DNA of 64,000 nucleotides from Hydrogenimonas thermophila (lineage in GTDB: Bacteria > Campylobacterota > Campylobacteria > Campylobacterales > Hydrogenimonadaceae): assembly GCF_900115615.1 (NCBI RefSeq), contig NZ_FOXB01000002.1:62001-126000 (forward strand), in the 5' to 3' direction. A model generated the notes under the pieces. It saw only the letters and a program-made list of their open reading frames with translations, searched no databases and was not told the origin of the DNA. Shown here piece by piece: positions 12,989 through 17,727 of this stretch. Each line of letters opens with the position of its first letter. The first letter of the stretch is position 1. A program made the translations under genes and the position numbers.

Positions 12989-14452
12989 ATGCAAAATGCA
13001 GCGTTGGAATACGACTATACCGTTGCAAAATGGTTTACTTATTTAGCCATTATTTTCGGTATTGTCGGTATGGTCATCGGTACATACATTGCCTTTGAAT
13101 TGGCGTTTCCTAGTATGAACGAATGGTTTGGACAGTATGGTACATTTAGTCGATTACGTCCTCTACACACTAATGTTGTAGCATTTGGATTTACTTTAAG
13201 TGGTATATGGGCAGCAATGTACTATATTGCACAAAGAACATTAAAAGTTTCTCTTAAAGAGAATAGTTTTGTAAATGGTCTTGCAAAGTTACATTTCTGG
13301 CTATATTTAATTCTTGCAGCATTGCTAGTTGTAACTGAGTTACTTGGTATTACAACATCTAAAGAATATGCAGAGATGGAGTGGCCTCTTGATGTTCTTA
13401 CAGTTGTTGTATGGGTTATTTTTGGTATGGCAATGTTTGGACTAATAGGTATGAGAAGAGAAAAAACTCTTTACATCTCAATGTGGTACTTCATTGCATT
13501 CTTCCTTGGCGTTGCAATGCTTTATCTATTTAACAATATGGAAGTACCAACATACTTTGTTACAGGGATGGGTAAATGGTATCACTCTGTTTCAATGTAT
13601 GCTGGAACAAATGATGCGCTTGTTCAATGGTGGTATGGACACAACGCTGTTGCATTTGTCTTTACTGTTCCTATTATTGCTATGATTTACTACTATCTTC
13701 CAAAAGAGTCTGGTCAGCCGGTATTCTCATATAAACTTTCTCTTCTTTCATTCTGGGGATTGATGTTTGTTTATCTTTGGGCTGGTGGACACCATTTGAT
13801 CTATTCTACTGTTCCTGATTGGATGCAGACAATGGGCTCTGTTTTCTCTATTGTGCTTATTCTTCCTTCTTGGGGTTCAGCTATTAATATGCTTCTTACA
13901 ATGAAAGGTGAGTGGAATCAGCTTAAAGAGTCTCCACTTATTAAGTTTATGGTTCTAGCATCTACATTCTATATGCTTTCTACTCTTGAAGGACCAATTC
14001 AGTCTATTAAATCTGTTAATGCTCTTGCACACTTTACAGATTGGATTCCTGGACACGTTCACGATGGTACTCTTGGTTGGGTTGCATTTATGGTTATTGC
14101 AGCTACTCTTCATATGGCACCACGCTTCTATAAGCGAGAGATTTATAGTAAAAAATTAATGGAGATGCAGTTCTGGGTACAAACAACTGGTATTGTTCTT
14201 TACTTCTCAAGTATGTGGATTGCAGGTATTACTCAAGGTATGATGTGGCGTGCAGTTGACCAGTATGGTAACCTTGCTTACTCATTTATCGATACTGTAA
14301 CAGTTCTACATCCATACTATACAATTCGTGCTATCGGTGGTCTTCTCTTTGTTGTTGGTCTATTTATGTGGGCTTACAACTTCTATAAAACGATGACAAA
14401 CAGTAAAGTTCTTGAAAAAGAACCTGCATTTGCATCGCCGATGGGCGCATAA
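12989..14452 (+). CDS. ccoN: cbb3-type cytochrome c oxidase subunit I
   Basis: A 487-residue inner-membrane catalytic subunit that holds low-spin haem b and the high-spin haem b3/CuB site, reducing O2 to water with high affinity. It has about 12 hydrophobic segments. His residues of the haem-copper family are visible in LRPLHTNVVAFGF, WWYGHNAVAFVF, AGGHHLIYSTVPDW and HFTDWIPGHVHDGTLGW. The start follows a near-perfect AAGGAGG site. It is the first gene of ccoNOQP, with ccoO 11 bp downstream. This is the usual terminal oxidase of Campylobacterota. Confidence 0.97.
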   Translation: MQNAALEYDYTVAKWFTYLAIIFGIVGMVIGTYIAFELAFPSMNEWFGQYGTFSRLRPLHTNVVAFGFTLSGIWAAMYYIAQRTLKVSLKENSFVNGLAKLHFWLYLILAALLVVTELLGITTSKEYAEMEWPLDVLTVVVWVIFGMAMFGLIGMRREKTLYISMWYFIAFFLGVAMLYLFNNMEVPTYFVTGMGKWYHSVSMYAGTNDALVQWWYGHNAVAFVFTVPIIAMIYYYLPKESGQPVFSYKLSLLSFWGLMFVYLWAGGHHLIYSTVPDWMQTMGSVFSIVLILPSWGSAINMLLTMKGEWNQLKESPLIKFMVLASTFYMLSTLEGPIQSIKSVNALAHFTDWIPGHVHDGTLGWVAFMVIAATLHMAPRFYKREIYSKKLMEMQFWVQTTGIVLYFSSMWIAGITQGMMWRAVDQYGNLAYSFIDTVTVLHPYYTIRAIGGLLFVVGLFMWAYNFYKTMTNSKVLEKEPAFASPMGA

Positions 14453-14463
14453 GGAGGTTTGGA

Positions 14464-15129
14464 ATGTTTCATTGGTTAGAACAACGACCGTTTTTATTCT
14501 CAGTAGGTGTTTTTCTGGTAATTGCTTTTGCCGGTCTTATTGAAATTGTGCCTGACTTTGCTCAGGCTTCACGTCCAGTTACAGGAAAGCAGCCATATAC
14601 ACTGCTTCAACTTGCAGGACGACATGTTTATATAAAAGATAGCTGTAATGCTTGTCATTCACAGCTAATTCGACCATTTAAATCTGAAACTGATCGTTAT
14701 GGTCCTTACAGTTTAAGTGGTGAATATGCATATGATAGACCTTTCCTTTGGGGTTCAAAAAGAACAGGACCAGATTTGCACCGTGTTGGACAGTATCGTA
14801 CAACTGACTGGCATGAAAACCATATGTGGGAGCCTACATCTGTAGTACCTGGATCAATTATGCCTCCATATAAACATATGTTTACACAAAATGCAGACTT
14901 GGAAACTGCTTATGCTGAAGCATTGACAGTAAAAAAAGTATTTAACGTACCATATGACAAACCAGGTTTTACAAAACTTGGAAGCTGGGAAGAGGCAAAA
15001 AAACAGGCACTTGAAGATGCTAAAAAAATTGCAGCAGATATGAAAAATCAAGATGTTAAAGATGCTGTTGCACGCGGAGAGATTCCAGAGATTGTTGCAC
15101 TTATTGCTTATATGAATAGTCTAAAGTAA
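14464..15129 (+). CDS. ccoO: cbb3-type cytochrome c oxidase subunit II (monohaem)
   Basis: A 221-residue membrane-anchored c-type cytochrome. One N-terminal membrane segment (about residues 10-30) is followed by the haem c motif C61-N-A-C64-H65 and an SIMPPYKHMF segment with the probable Met axial ligand. It passes electrons from CcoP to CcoN. An AAGGAGG site stands before the ATG, and ccoQ begins 9 bp after its stop. The length is typical. Confidence 0.96.
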   Translation: MFHWLEQRPFLFSVGVFLVIAFAGLIEIVPDFAQASRPVTGKQPYTLLQLAGRHVYIKDSCNACHSQLIRPFKSETDRYGPYSLSGEYAYDRPFLWGSKRTGPDLHRVGQYRTTDWHENHMWEPTSVVPGSIMPPYKHMFTQNADLETAYAEALTVKKVFNVPYDKPGFTKLGSWEEAKKQALEDAKKIAADMKNQDVKDAVARGEIPEIVALIAYMNSLK

Positions 15130-15138
15130 GGTGAAAAC

Positions 15139-15354
15139 GTGGAAAATATTAGAGAATTGCAGGCATATGCTTACTTTTTCTTCACTGTCTTTTTGACAGT
15201 GATTCTGTATGCCTATATCCTGCATCTCTACCGTGCAGAAAAGAAGGGTACTCGGAATTATGAGAAGTACGGTAAACTGGCATTAGATGATGAACTTGAT
15301 TCTGCGCCAGTTGAGCCGAAGGAAGAGATGAAAGAAAACAAGGAGCAGTCATGA
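15139..15354 (+). CDS. ccoQ: cbb3 oxidase small subunit CcoQ
   Basis: A 71-residue single-pass membrane protein that starts with GTG (15139) after a GGTGAAAACG spacer. The hydrophobic helix spans about residues 10-28 (AYFFFTVFLTVILYAYIL), followed by a charged, Glu/Lys-rich cytoplasmic tail. In known operons CcoQ stabilises the oxidase complex. It overlaps ccoP by 4 bp (ATGA). The assignment rests on size, topology and its place between ccoO and ccoP. Confidence 0.88.
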   Translation: MENIRELQAYAYFFFTVFLTVILYAYILHLYRAEKKGTRNYEKYGKLALDDELDSAPVEPKEEMKENKEQS

Positions 15355-16175
15355 ACAGTAATATTTTACAAGACAATATTAACCAGCTCTCCCTGCTAGC
15401 AGCGGTTATTATTTTCTTCTTGACGGTATTTGTTGCTGGTAAATATATTAAGCAGATGAAAACCGACAAGTCTACAGGTGAGCTTGCTGATGAAAATTGG
15501 GATGGAATCGGTGAATATAAAAATGAGTTGCCTGCTGGTTGGGCTTATACTTTTCTTGGAACAATGGTATGGGCATTATGGTATTGGACAGCAGGTTATC
15601 CTGTAAATGCTTACTCTCAAATTGGTGAATATAATGAAGAAGTTGCTGCTCACCAAAAAACTTTTGAAAGTAAATGGGCTAGTGCTGATAAACAAACATT
15701 ACAAGAGATGGGTGAAGGTGTTTATTTAGTTCAGTGTGCACCTTGCCATGGTATTGCAGGTGATGGAATGGGTGGAAAAGCTGCAGACTTAACTGTATGG
15801 GGTTCTGCTGCTGGTGTTCTTGAAACTATTAAAAATGGATCAAAAGGTTTAGGGTATCCAATGGGTGAAATGCCTGGTGGTATGCTAAGCGGCGATGCTG
15901 CAAAAAAAGTAGCTGAATATGTTGCTAATGGAATGAAAGGTGAACAACCTGCTGAATTTGCAACTTGTGCTGGATGTCACGGAGCAGATGGAAAAGGTAT
16001 GGGTGGAATGGCTCCAGACCTTACTAAGTATGGAACTCCTGCTTTTGTTGCTGATGTACTTGAAAGAGGTAAAAAAGGGTATATTGGTAAGATGGTCAGC
16101 TTTAAAGGAAGATTGACTCCAGTGCAAGAAAAAGCTGTTGGTAGCTATATTCTTAGCCTTGCACGTGGCGAATAA
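15351..16175 (+). CDS. ccoP: cbb3-type cytochrome c oxidase subunit III (dihaem)
   Basis: A 274-residue dihaem cytochrome c. Two membrane segments lie near residues 12-33 and 63-85, with the conserved DGIGEYKNELPAGW segment between them. The periplasmic part has two haem c motifs, C129-A-P-C132-H133 and C206-A-G-C209-H210, each followed by a Gly/Met-rich stretch. It accepts electrons from soluble cytochrome c or the bc1 complex and delivers them to CcoO. The DUF4006 gene follows 10 bp downstream in the same operon. Confidence 0.96.
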   Translation: MNSNILQDNINQLSLLAAVIIFFLTVFVAGKYIKQMKTDKSTGELADENWDGIGEYKNELPAGWAYTFLGTMVWALWYWTAGYPVNAYSQIGEYNEEVAAHQKTFESKWASADKQTLQEMGEGVYLVQCAPCHGIAGDGMGGKAADLTVWGSAAGVLETIKNGSKGLGYPMGEMPGGMLSGDAAKKVAEYVANGMKGEQPAEFATCAGCHGADGKGMGGMAPDLTKYGTPAFVADVLERGKKGYIGKMVSFKGRLTPVQEKAVGSYILSLARGE

Positions 16176-16185
16176 GGAGTAGGTA

Positions 16186-16446
16186 ATGGAAAAACAAGGA
16201 AGTGCATTTGGAATTCATGGCATAGGTGGTATGTTAGTTGCAACAGTTTTGTTATTAGCGATACTTGCAGGTTTAACTACTGCTGCGCTTGTAACACAAC
16301 AAGCAACTGCTCAACAATCTTATGAGATAAAAGATCCGCTTTCTATAAAAATGAGAGGTGATAACCTTTCTAATGAGGAGAAACTTGTTATTCATGGTAC
16401 TCCTGTAGGTGGCGATTCATTACATAAATATAAATTTGAAAACTAA
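16186..16446 (+). CDS. DUF4006 family membrane protein
   Basis: An 86-residue single-pass membrane protein. A Gly-rich start (GIHGIGGM) leads into a helix at about residues 15-38, then a soluble tail with LSIKMRGDNLSNEEKLV. DUF4006 proteins appear next to ccoP in Campylobacterota and have no proven function; a role in oxidase assembly or stability is a guess from context. The start has a GGAGTAGGTA ribosome site 10 bp after ccoP. A stable hairpin follows the stop. Confidence 0.8.
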   Translation: MEKQGSAFGIHGIGGMLVATVLLLAILAGLTTAALVTQQATAQQSYEIKDPLSIKMRGDNLSNEEKLVIHGTPVGGDSLHKYKFEN

Positions 16447-16454
16447 AAATTGAA

Positions 16455-16491
16455 AAAGACAACAAGCTATTATTTTAAGTTTGTTGTCTTT
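16455..16491 (+). terminator. 11-bp hairpin inside the cbb3 gene cluster
   Basis: AAAGACAACAA (16455-16465) pairs perfectly with TTGTTGTCTTT (16481-16491), loop 15 bases. No U-run follows, and a ribosome site starts 9 bases later. Partial termination or protection of the upstream ccoNOQP mRNA end is more likely than full termination. Confidence 0.5.
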
Positions 16492-16512
16492 CAAGAATAA
16501 AAGGAGAGTCAT

Positions 16513-16614
16513 ATGATTCAAGTTATGGATAAAGTACTCGGATGGGGCATGGTTATATTAGCTGCATATACACTTTGGGCAGTAACAACTGCAAATCATG
16601 CATTTGTAGGTTAA
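16513..16614 (+). CDS. 33-residue single-pass membrane peptide in the cbb3 cluster
   Basis: A short gene preceded by a strong AAGGAGA site (16501-16507) and a good ATG. Its product is a short N-terminal segment (MIQVMDKVLG), a hydrophobic helix of about 18 residues (WGMVILAAYTLWAVTTA) and an NHAFVG tail. It lies between the DUF4006 and TPM-like genes. In Pseudomonas stutzeri the cbb3 oxidase has a similarly small single-helix subunit, CcoM; this peptide has that size and topology, but homology is not shown. The spacing (11 bp to the next ATG) supports translation as part of the operon. Confidence 0.65.
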   Translation: MIQVMDKVLGWGMVILAAYTLWAVTTANHAFVG

Positions 16615-16625
16615 TCATTAATCAT

Positions 16626-17246
16626 ATGGTTACAATTTTTAAAAGGGCTTTTAGCCCTTTCTTTCTACTAGTAGTTTTTTTATCTCCTGTATTCTTATTT
16701 GCACAAGTTAATTTTATTTTGGTCAATGATGGAGTCATGCCTCCTAAAGAAGTTGATAAAATTGAGCAAATGGGAACTGAGCTCTATGAAAAAACGAAGG
16801 TTCCAGTTTTTGTTGCAGCAGTTGGTGATTTAAATAATACACGACCAGTTGATCTTCTTAATAAAATTAAAAAAGAGTACCCAACATATATTTTACTCTA
16901 TTTTTCAGTAAAACCTACAGCTGTCAATATTTTTGCTTCTGAAGATGCTAAAAAGCTGATTGATATTGATCAGATATTGAGTCCTCTTCCATGGAGGGGT
17001 ACAATTCGACCAGTTATGAGTCCAGCATTTAGTAAAAGTGACAGTGTAAAGCAGGAAGTTGCAATCTTTAATGGATATGCTGATATTGTTGATCAAGTTG
17101 CTGAGAGCAAAGATATTAAACTTACATCAAGTATAGGAAGTGAGAGTAGATCAACTTTTCAAATAGTTCGTACTATTTTTTATGCCATACTTGCATTTAT
17201 AATTTTGCAATTTATTTTAAAGAGGAAAAAGAATGCAACAAAATAA
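16626..17246 (+). CDS. TPM-domain-like membrane-anchored periplasmic protein
   Basis: A 206-residue protein with an N-terminal signal or anchor helix (residues about 7-27, ending LFAQ), a periplasmic domain at about 35-150 reminiscent of the TPM domain (VNDGVMPPKEVDKIEQMG, YEKTKVPVFVAAVGDL, PTYILLYFSV), and a C-terminal membrane helix at about 182-200 followed by a Lys-rich end. TPM proteins include phosphatase-like and photosystem/respiratory assembly factors. The true start is ATG 16626; a longer reading from 16542 would run through the preceding small gene. It overlaps the FixH gene by 14 bp. Confidence 0.6.
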   Translation: MVTIFKRAFSPFFLLVVFLSPVFLFAQVNFILVNDGVMPPKEVDKIEQMGTELYEKTKVPVFVAAVGDLNNTRPVDLLNKIKKEYPTYILLYFSVKPTAVNIFASEDAKKLIDIDQILSPLPWRGTIRPVMSPAFSKSDSVKQEVAIFNGYADIVDQVAESKDIKLTSSIGSESRSTFQIVRTIFYAILAFIILQFILKRKKNATK

Positions 17247-17727
17247 TAAAAAAGAGATAAATTATTGGCCATATGCTATTGTCGGGATGATCCTGACAGT
17301 AGTAATTTTAGGTATTTGGACAATCAAAGTTGCAGTAAACAATCCTGTACAATTAGATAATAGCTATATGATGAAGTATCAGGATGTTGATGAAAATATC
17401 AATGAAATAATGGCTAAACAGAAACTTTTTGACTTAAAGTATCAAATTGATTTAAGTAGCAATAAGTTGAAAATTGGCAAAAATAAAGTAGTAGTAAATT
17501 TGATTTCAAAAGATAGCAATATAATTAATAATCCTGAAATTACTGTTGTTGTTACAAGACCAACAACTACTCAATATGATATTCATTTAAATAATTTTGA
17601 GTTTAATGGTAAAAGTTATATAAGTGAAGAATTTGAAGTAAAAAATGGAGGTAGATGGAATATTGAAGTTAGAGTAAAAATAGGTGAAGATATTGGATAT
17701 AAAACTTATAAACTGTTTGTTAAGTAA
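17233..17727 (+). CDS. FixH/CcoH-family cbb3 oxidase assembly protein
   Basis: A 164-residue protein with one N-terminal membrane helix at about residues 12-33 (YAIVGMILTVVILGIWTIKV) and a periplasmic beta-rich domain. The NPVQLDNSYMMKYQDVDENIN segment after the helix is the FixH-like part that precedes the domain's Ig-like strands. FixH/CcoH proteins associate with and stabilise the cbb3 oxidase during maturation. It is the last gene of the cbb3 cluster here. Other maturation genes (ccoI, ccoG, ccoS) are not in the window. Confidence 0.78.
   Translation: MQQNNKKEINYWPYAIVGMILTVVILGIWTIKVAVNNPVQLDNSYMMKYQDVDENINEIMAKQKLFDLKYQIDLSSNKLKIGKNKVVVNLISKDSNIINNPEITVVVTRPTTTQYDIHLNNFEFNGKSYISEEFEVKNGGRWNIEVRVKIGEDIGYKTYKLFVK

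Follow-up and report, generated by a model that had tools for sequence, protein, structure and literature searches.

The 33-residue membrane peptide between DUF4006 and the TPM-like gene in the cbb3 oxidase cluster of Hydrogenimonas thermophila is very probably CcoY, with relatives across Campylobacterota

The window analysed here, a 64,000-nucleotide stretch of a Hydrogenimonas thermophila contig, carries a complete gene cluster for the cbb3 oxidase, the high-affinity oxidase of Campylobacterota, the phylum that includes Campylobacter and Helicobacter. All genes of the cluster lie on the forward strand. It opens with ccoN, coding for the catalytic subunit (12989–14452; PF00115, E 1.5e-106, with cbb3 CcoN among the nearest solved chains), followed by ccoO (14464–15129; PF02433, E 3.9e-85), ccoQ (15139–15354; PF05545, E 2.4e-17) and ccoP (15351–16175; PF14715 and PF13442). 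Further downstream are ccoX, the DUF4006 gene and counterpart of Cj1486c of Campylobacter jejuni (16186–16446; PF13179, E 1.6e-23), ccoZ, a TPM-like gene and counterpart of Cj1484c (16626–17246; a weak match to PF04536, E 0.0018), and ccoH (17233–17727; FixH, PF05751, E 3.1e-9). Comparison of DUF4006 with solved structures returned nothing meaningful. With the short frame lying between ccoX and ccoZ, named ccoY hereafter, the order in the window reads ccoNOQP-X-Y-Z-H.

The ccoY frame (16513–16614, forward strand) comprises 33 codons and a TAA stop at 16612–16614, and its translation is MIQVMDKVLGWGMVILAAYTLWAVTTANHAFVG. Direct reading of positions 16500–16515 gives AAAGGAGAGTCATATG, with an AAGGAG ribosome-binding site at 16501–16506 placed 6 bases ahead of the ATG. 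The structural model of the peptide displays one helix covering residues 2–25 (mean pLDDT 86), which includes the hydrophobic stretch of residues 8–24, and a less ordered tail. A preliminary description of this DNA had reported a strong ribosome site, a clean ATG and a single helix in a 33-residue frame between DUF4006 and the TPM-like gene, and all of these features were recovered. The next gene, ccoZ, has no strong ribosome site to itself and starts 11 bases past ccoY. A terminator-like hairpin (AAAGGGCTTTTAGCCCTTT, 16642–16660) lies within the beginning of the ccoZ coding region.

Upstream of ccoY, the 66-base gap after ccoX folds on the forward strand into an RNA hairpin with a main stem of 12 pairs (16450–16494; -17 kcal/mol, z -4.2, none of 200 shuffles as good). 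This possible expression-tuning element may adjust the expression of ccoYZH relative to ccoNOQPX. It was not conserved among the congeners that were folded, one of which (locus L042) has a different hairpin before ccoY.

The frame occurs once in the window genome, and both its 33 codons and its ribosome site are intact in 17 genomes of the genus, the window genome being one of them. Across these genomes, pN/pS is 0.115 in frame, compared with 1.9 and 2.5 in frames +1 and +2, and third codon positions make up 30 of the 53 variable sites, while the other two forward frames are interrupted by stops in nearly every genome. In several relatives the DNA alignment starts precisely at the ATG (query base 334, corresponding to 16513), and a GGAG- or AGGA-type site is found at the position equivalent to that of the window. 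A frame kept at the same length, with such a pN/pS and with alignments starting at its ATG, is not a product of chance: ccoY is a genuine protein-coding gene under strong purifying selection. The possibility raised in the preliminary description, that relatives might hold no conserved frame, clearly fails.

The same data bear on the idea that the frame is either a chance ORF or a leader that only couples the translation of ccoZ. Among 115 distinct loci, a clear ribosome site specific to ccoZ is often missing, and most ccoZ starts lie no more than about 12 bases from the ccoY stop, an arrangement that a leader would explain. However, the peptide itself is under strong selection and is conserved across families, which leaves this reading with hardly any probability.

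Scans of the window peptide against Pfam and NCBIfam gave no matches, and a search of solved structures with the CcoY family profile gave none either. The lack of a Pfam or NCBIfam match, together with the reach of the family described below, would justify a new model for it. The peptide is, on the other hand, not a new protein. C. jejuni Cj1485c, named ccoY in 2021, has 33 residues and a central helix, and is flanked by cj1486c (DUF4006, ccoX) and cj1484c (TPM/DUF5130, ccoZ), followed by ccoH (PMC8267372). To anchor this correspondence in sequence, we used the published cj1485c deletion primer (PMC8267372): its reverse complement matches the C. jejuni-like genome G278 with zero mismatches and stops a single base short of the ATG that opens a family member of 33 residues, MNKALEYLIVIGLVVAAAITAWSVLTVNHLHIG. 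Family profile A1 matches this genome at 3.5e-12, and the window peptide is identical to the G278 peptide at 12 of 33 positions without gaps. Directly after ccoY in G278, profile A3, whose five rows include the window ccoZ sequence, matches with an E-value of 2.8e-26. Since the primer-anchored C. jejuni peptide is a homologous member of the family, we assign the window frame to ccoY, and hold with high confidence that 16513–16614 encodes CcoY with a role in normal oxidase function. The preliminary description was right that a small membrane protein linked to the oxidase is encoded here, but this is no overlooked new protein, because CcoY (Cj1485c) had been described in 2021 (PMC8267372). In C. 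jejuni the ortholog is annotated as a gene; the main text of a ribosome-profiling paper on that species does not mention cj1485c.

What is new, alongside the missing Pfam and NCBIfam matches and the case against CcoM membership given below, is the distribution of CcoY over the phylum, including diverged Helicobacter-like and Arcobacter-like versions. A search profile built from 20 peptides matched 249 of 397 Campylobacterota genomes, usually with one copy each, and 75 named loci come from Hydrogenimonas, Sulfurovum, Sulfurimonas, Nitratifractor, Nitratiruptor, Sulfurospirillum, Thiovulum and others. DUF4006 is present in 380 of the 397 genomes. None of the 17 genomes without it gave a match to the CcoY profile, and ccoO is missing as well in 16 of them. 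Genomes with neither DUF4006 nor ccoO include G031, G048, G074, G083, G084 and others in family f15, and G208, G242 and G331 in family f10; these f15 and f10 genomes seem to be missing cbb3 as a whole.

Two large families, f8 and f13, gave weak profile matches or none; we label them Arcobacter-like and Helicobacter-like by inference, including from gene content and peptides. Loss of ccoY in these families was considered and ruled out by the short helix frames found there after DUF4006. When the DNA 3' of DUF4006 was read in 45 genomes, a frame of 29–41 residues with a single helix followed directly in nearly every case, usually with a ribosome site; at locus L157, the filtered listing held no such short frame. 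The distinct peptides number 10 from f8 and 21 from f13, and a genome placed in f5 contributes one more that is similar; MEKIIGILLLVSAVMTVYYGFFDATKVFVG and MKFTTLEKVLALMVVATILMTIIISFVPNLFLFST are examples of the diverged forms. In profile-profile comparison, the diverged f8 and f13 groups reached 86–96% probability against the core CcoY family, whereas control helices from the same cluster (CcoX, CcoH and CcoQ) reached at most 14%; these controls argue against the notion that any two hydrophobic helices would align. As each E-value refers to a single pair and the peptides are short, it is the combination of position and profile that supports homology for the diverged groups. CcoY thus follows DUF4006 almost everywhere examined, which turns the C. 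jejuni observation into a general feature and supplies short sequences that can be sought when oxidases are purified or their structures solved.

The long frame taken as ccoZ starts between -11 and +54 bases from the ccoY stop in 104 of the 115 distinct loci, so coupling between the two genes is tight as a rule. Most of the congeners examined have ccoG between ccoX and ccoY; in the window genome, ccoG is found on another contig (C3:89869–91296 of genome G000). G051, a member of family f18, shows a ccoG-type motif close to its ccoX, and its ccoY is preceded by a gap of 1.5 kb. In G249 (locus L169), an unrelated gene follows the ccoX-ccoY pair and ccoZ is located on a different contig (C47). Either neighbour, ccoX or ccoZ, can therefore be separated from ccoY.

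Deletion of ccoY in C. jejuni significantly reduced oxidase activity without abolishing it, copper supplementation gave no rescue, and the defect was seen in the ascorbate/TMPD assay, which bypasses the cytochrome bc (Qcr) complex; ccoX and ccoH, for their part, were essential (PMC8267372). Part of the deletion effect might be polar on ccoZ and ccoH. These observations bear on a supercomplex-linker role, in which CcoY and CcoZ together would dock Qcr to the oxidase. CcoZ has similarity to a supercomplex protein of mycobacteria and migrates together with Qcr (PMC8267372), and the position of a ccoZ-like frame at or directly past the ccoY stop in most loci fits such a partnership. The separation of ccoX-ccoY from ccoZ in G249 speaks against it. 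Moreover, electrons enter this assay at the oxidase and the defect persists, so a pure linker fits less well; we consider it unlikely, at something like one chance in five.

The charge pattern of the family suggests how CcoY would sit in the membrane. The window peptide has one K/R residue before the helix and none after it, and in 97 of the 115 distinct peptides K/R are more numerous ahead of the helix than behind it, in 18 the numbers are equal, and in no case do more follow it. Following the positive-inside rule, the N-terminus is predicted in the cytoplasm and the conserved C-terminal tail in the periplasm. The most conserved residues (A17, T20, W22, V24, T26, H29 and G33) are spread over the C-terminal half of the helix and the tail, the part predicted to point towards the periplasm; the tail follows the pattern T-x-N-H-x-F/Y-V/I-G. 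Three loci (L098, L099 and L104, two of them from Nitratifractor records) carry VTGVSYVG in place of the T-x-N-H-x-Y/F tail. The haem domains of CcoO and CcoP are on the periplasmic side of the membrane.

CcoY is best explained as an accessory protein of the Campylobacterota cbb3 oxidase, small in size and spanning the inner membrane a single time. Its helix would pack against the oxidase core or against the accessory helices of CcoX and CcoH, while the tail would contact CcoO, CcoP or CcoZ on the periplasmic side. By stabilising the assembled enzyme in this way, CcoY would account for a loss that lowers activity without abolishing it. In our view CcoY is most likely a peripheral subunit with a stabilising effect exerted from the periplasmic side, its orientation, physical association and binding site being inferred. 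We put about even odds on CcoY being a permanent subunit with a stabilising role, as opposed to an assembly factor or a linker.

The main alternative is a transient assembly factor that would aid the insertion or joining of CcoNO and CcoP and then leave. It owes this standing to the mass spectrometry of C. jejuni oxidase bands, which listed CcoX, CcoZ and CcoH but not CcoY (PMC8267372). The partial phenotype of the mutant agrees with such a role, as does the assembly gene ccoG adjoining ccoY in most congeners. The absence from the protein list is, however, weak evidence, because a 33-residue helix offers few tryptic sites and is hard to detect by mass spectrometry after trypsin digestion. The conserved tail with W22, T26, H29 and G33 speaks for a fixed contact, a property that an assembly factor could nevertheless share. 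Overall, we judge a transient assembly role possible but rather improbable, though less so than the linker.

Compared with known systems, the closest is CcoY of C. jejuni. Both peptides have 33 residues, one central helix and a position between ccoX and ccoZ, the order ccoNOQP-X-Y-Z-H is common to both clusters, and the C-terminal motif V-x-T-x-N-H-x-x-(V/I)-G is shared. The two belong to different genera and differ in the spacing of the genes: ccoY overlaps ccoZ by 4 bases in C. jejuni, whereas an 11-base gap separates them in the window, where the 66-base gap with its hairpin also follows ccoX. CcoQ (FixQ) is likewise a small single-helix protein from the same operon; nevertheless, it is encoded by a separate gene (15139–15354), has its own Pfam family and reaches a profile probability of only 0.4% against CcoY.

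The preliminary description had likened the peptide to CcoM of the Pseudomonas cbb3 oxidase. As reference we used chain N of PDB 5djq (Pseudomonas stutzeri). The likeness holds as far as size is concerned, both proteins being tiny (36 residues in CcoM, 33 in CcoY); both also consist of a single helix and are linked to cbb3, and these are the features that would speak for true homology or direct equivalence. The rest of the comparison points the other way. In hhalign, the CcoY family reached 0.4% probability against 5djq_N, and although the CcoM side consists of a single sequence, which leaves a slight chance of a very distant relationship, the alignment of the window peptide with CcoM was no better than shuffles, 82% of which scored as well. 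The charge pattern is also reversed: CcoM has no K/R before its helix and three after it, while the positive charges of CcoY are N-terminal, so that by the positive-inside rule the two proteins are predicted to have opposite orientations. Judged by sequence and charge, CcoY is not a member of the CcoM family, and we consider homology or direct equivalence very improbable; it may nonetheless fill a similar role, that of a small helix with a stabilising effect. Somewhat short of an even chance, in our estimation, is the broader reading in which CcoY would be a universal, phylum-specific structural subunit, of separate evolutionary origin from CcoM and inserted in the opposite orientation, present also in the relatives of Helicobacter and Arcobacter and perhaps overlooked there.
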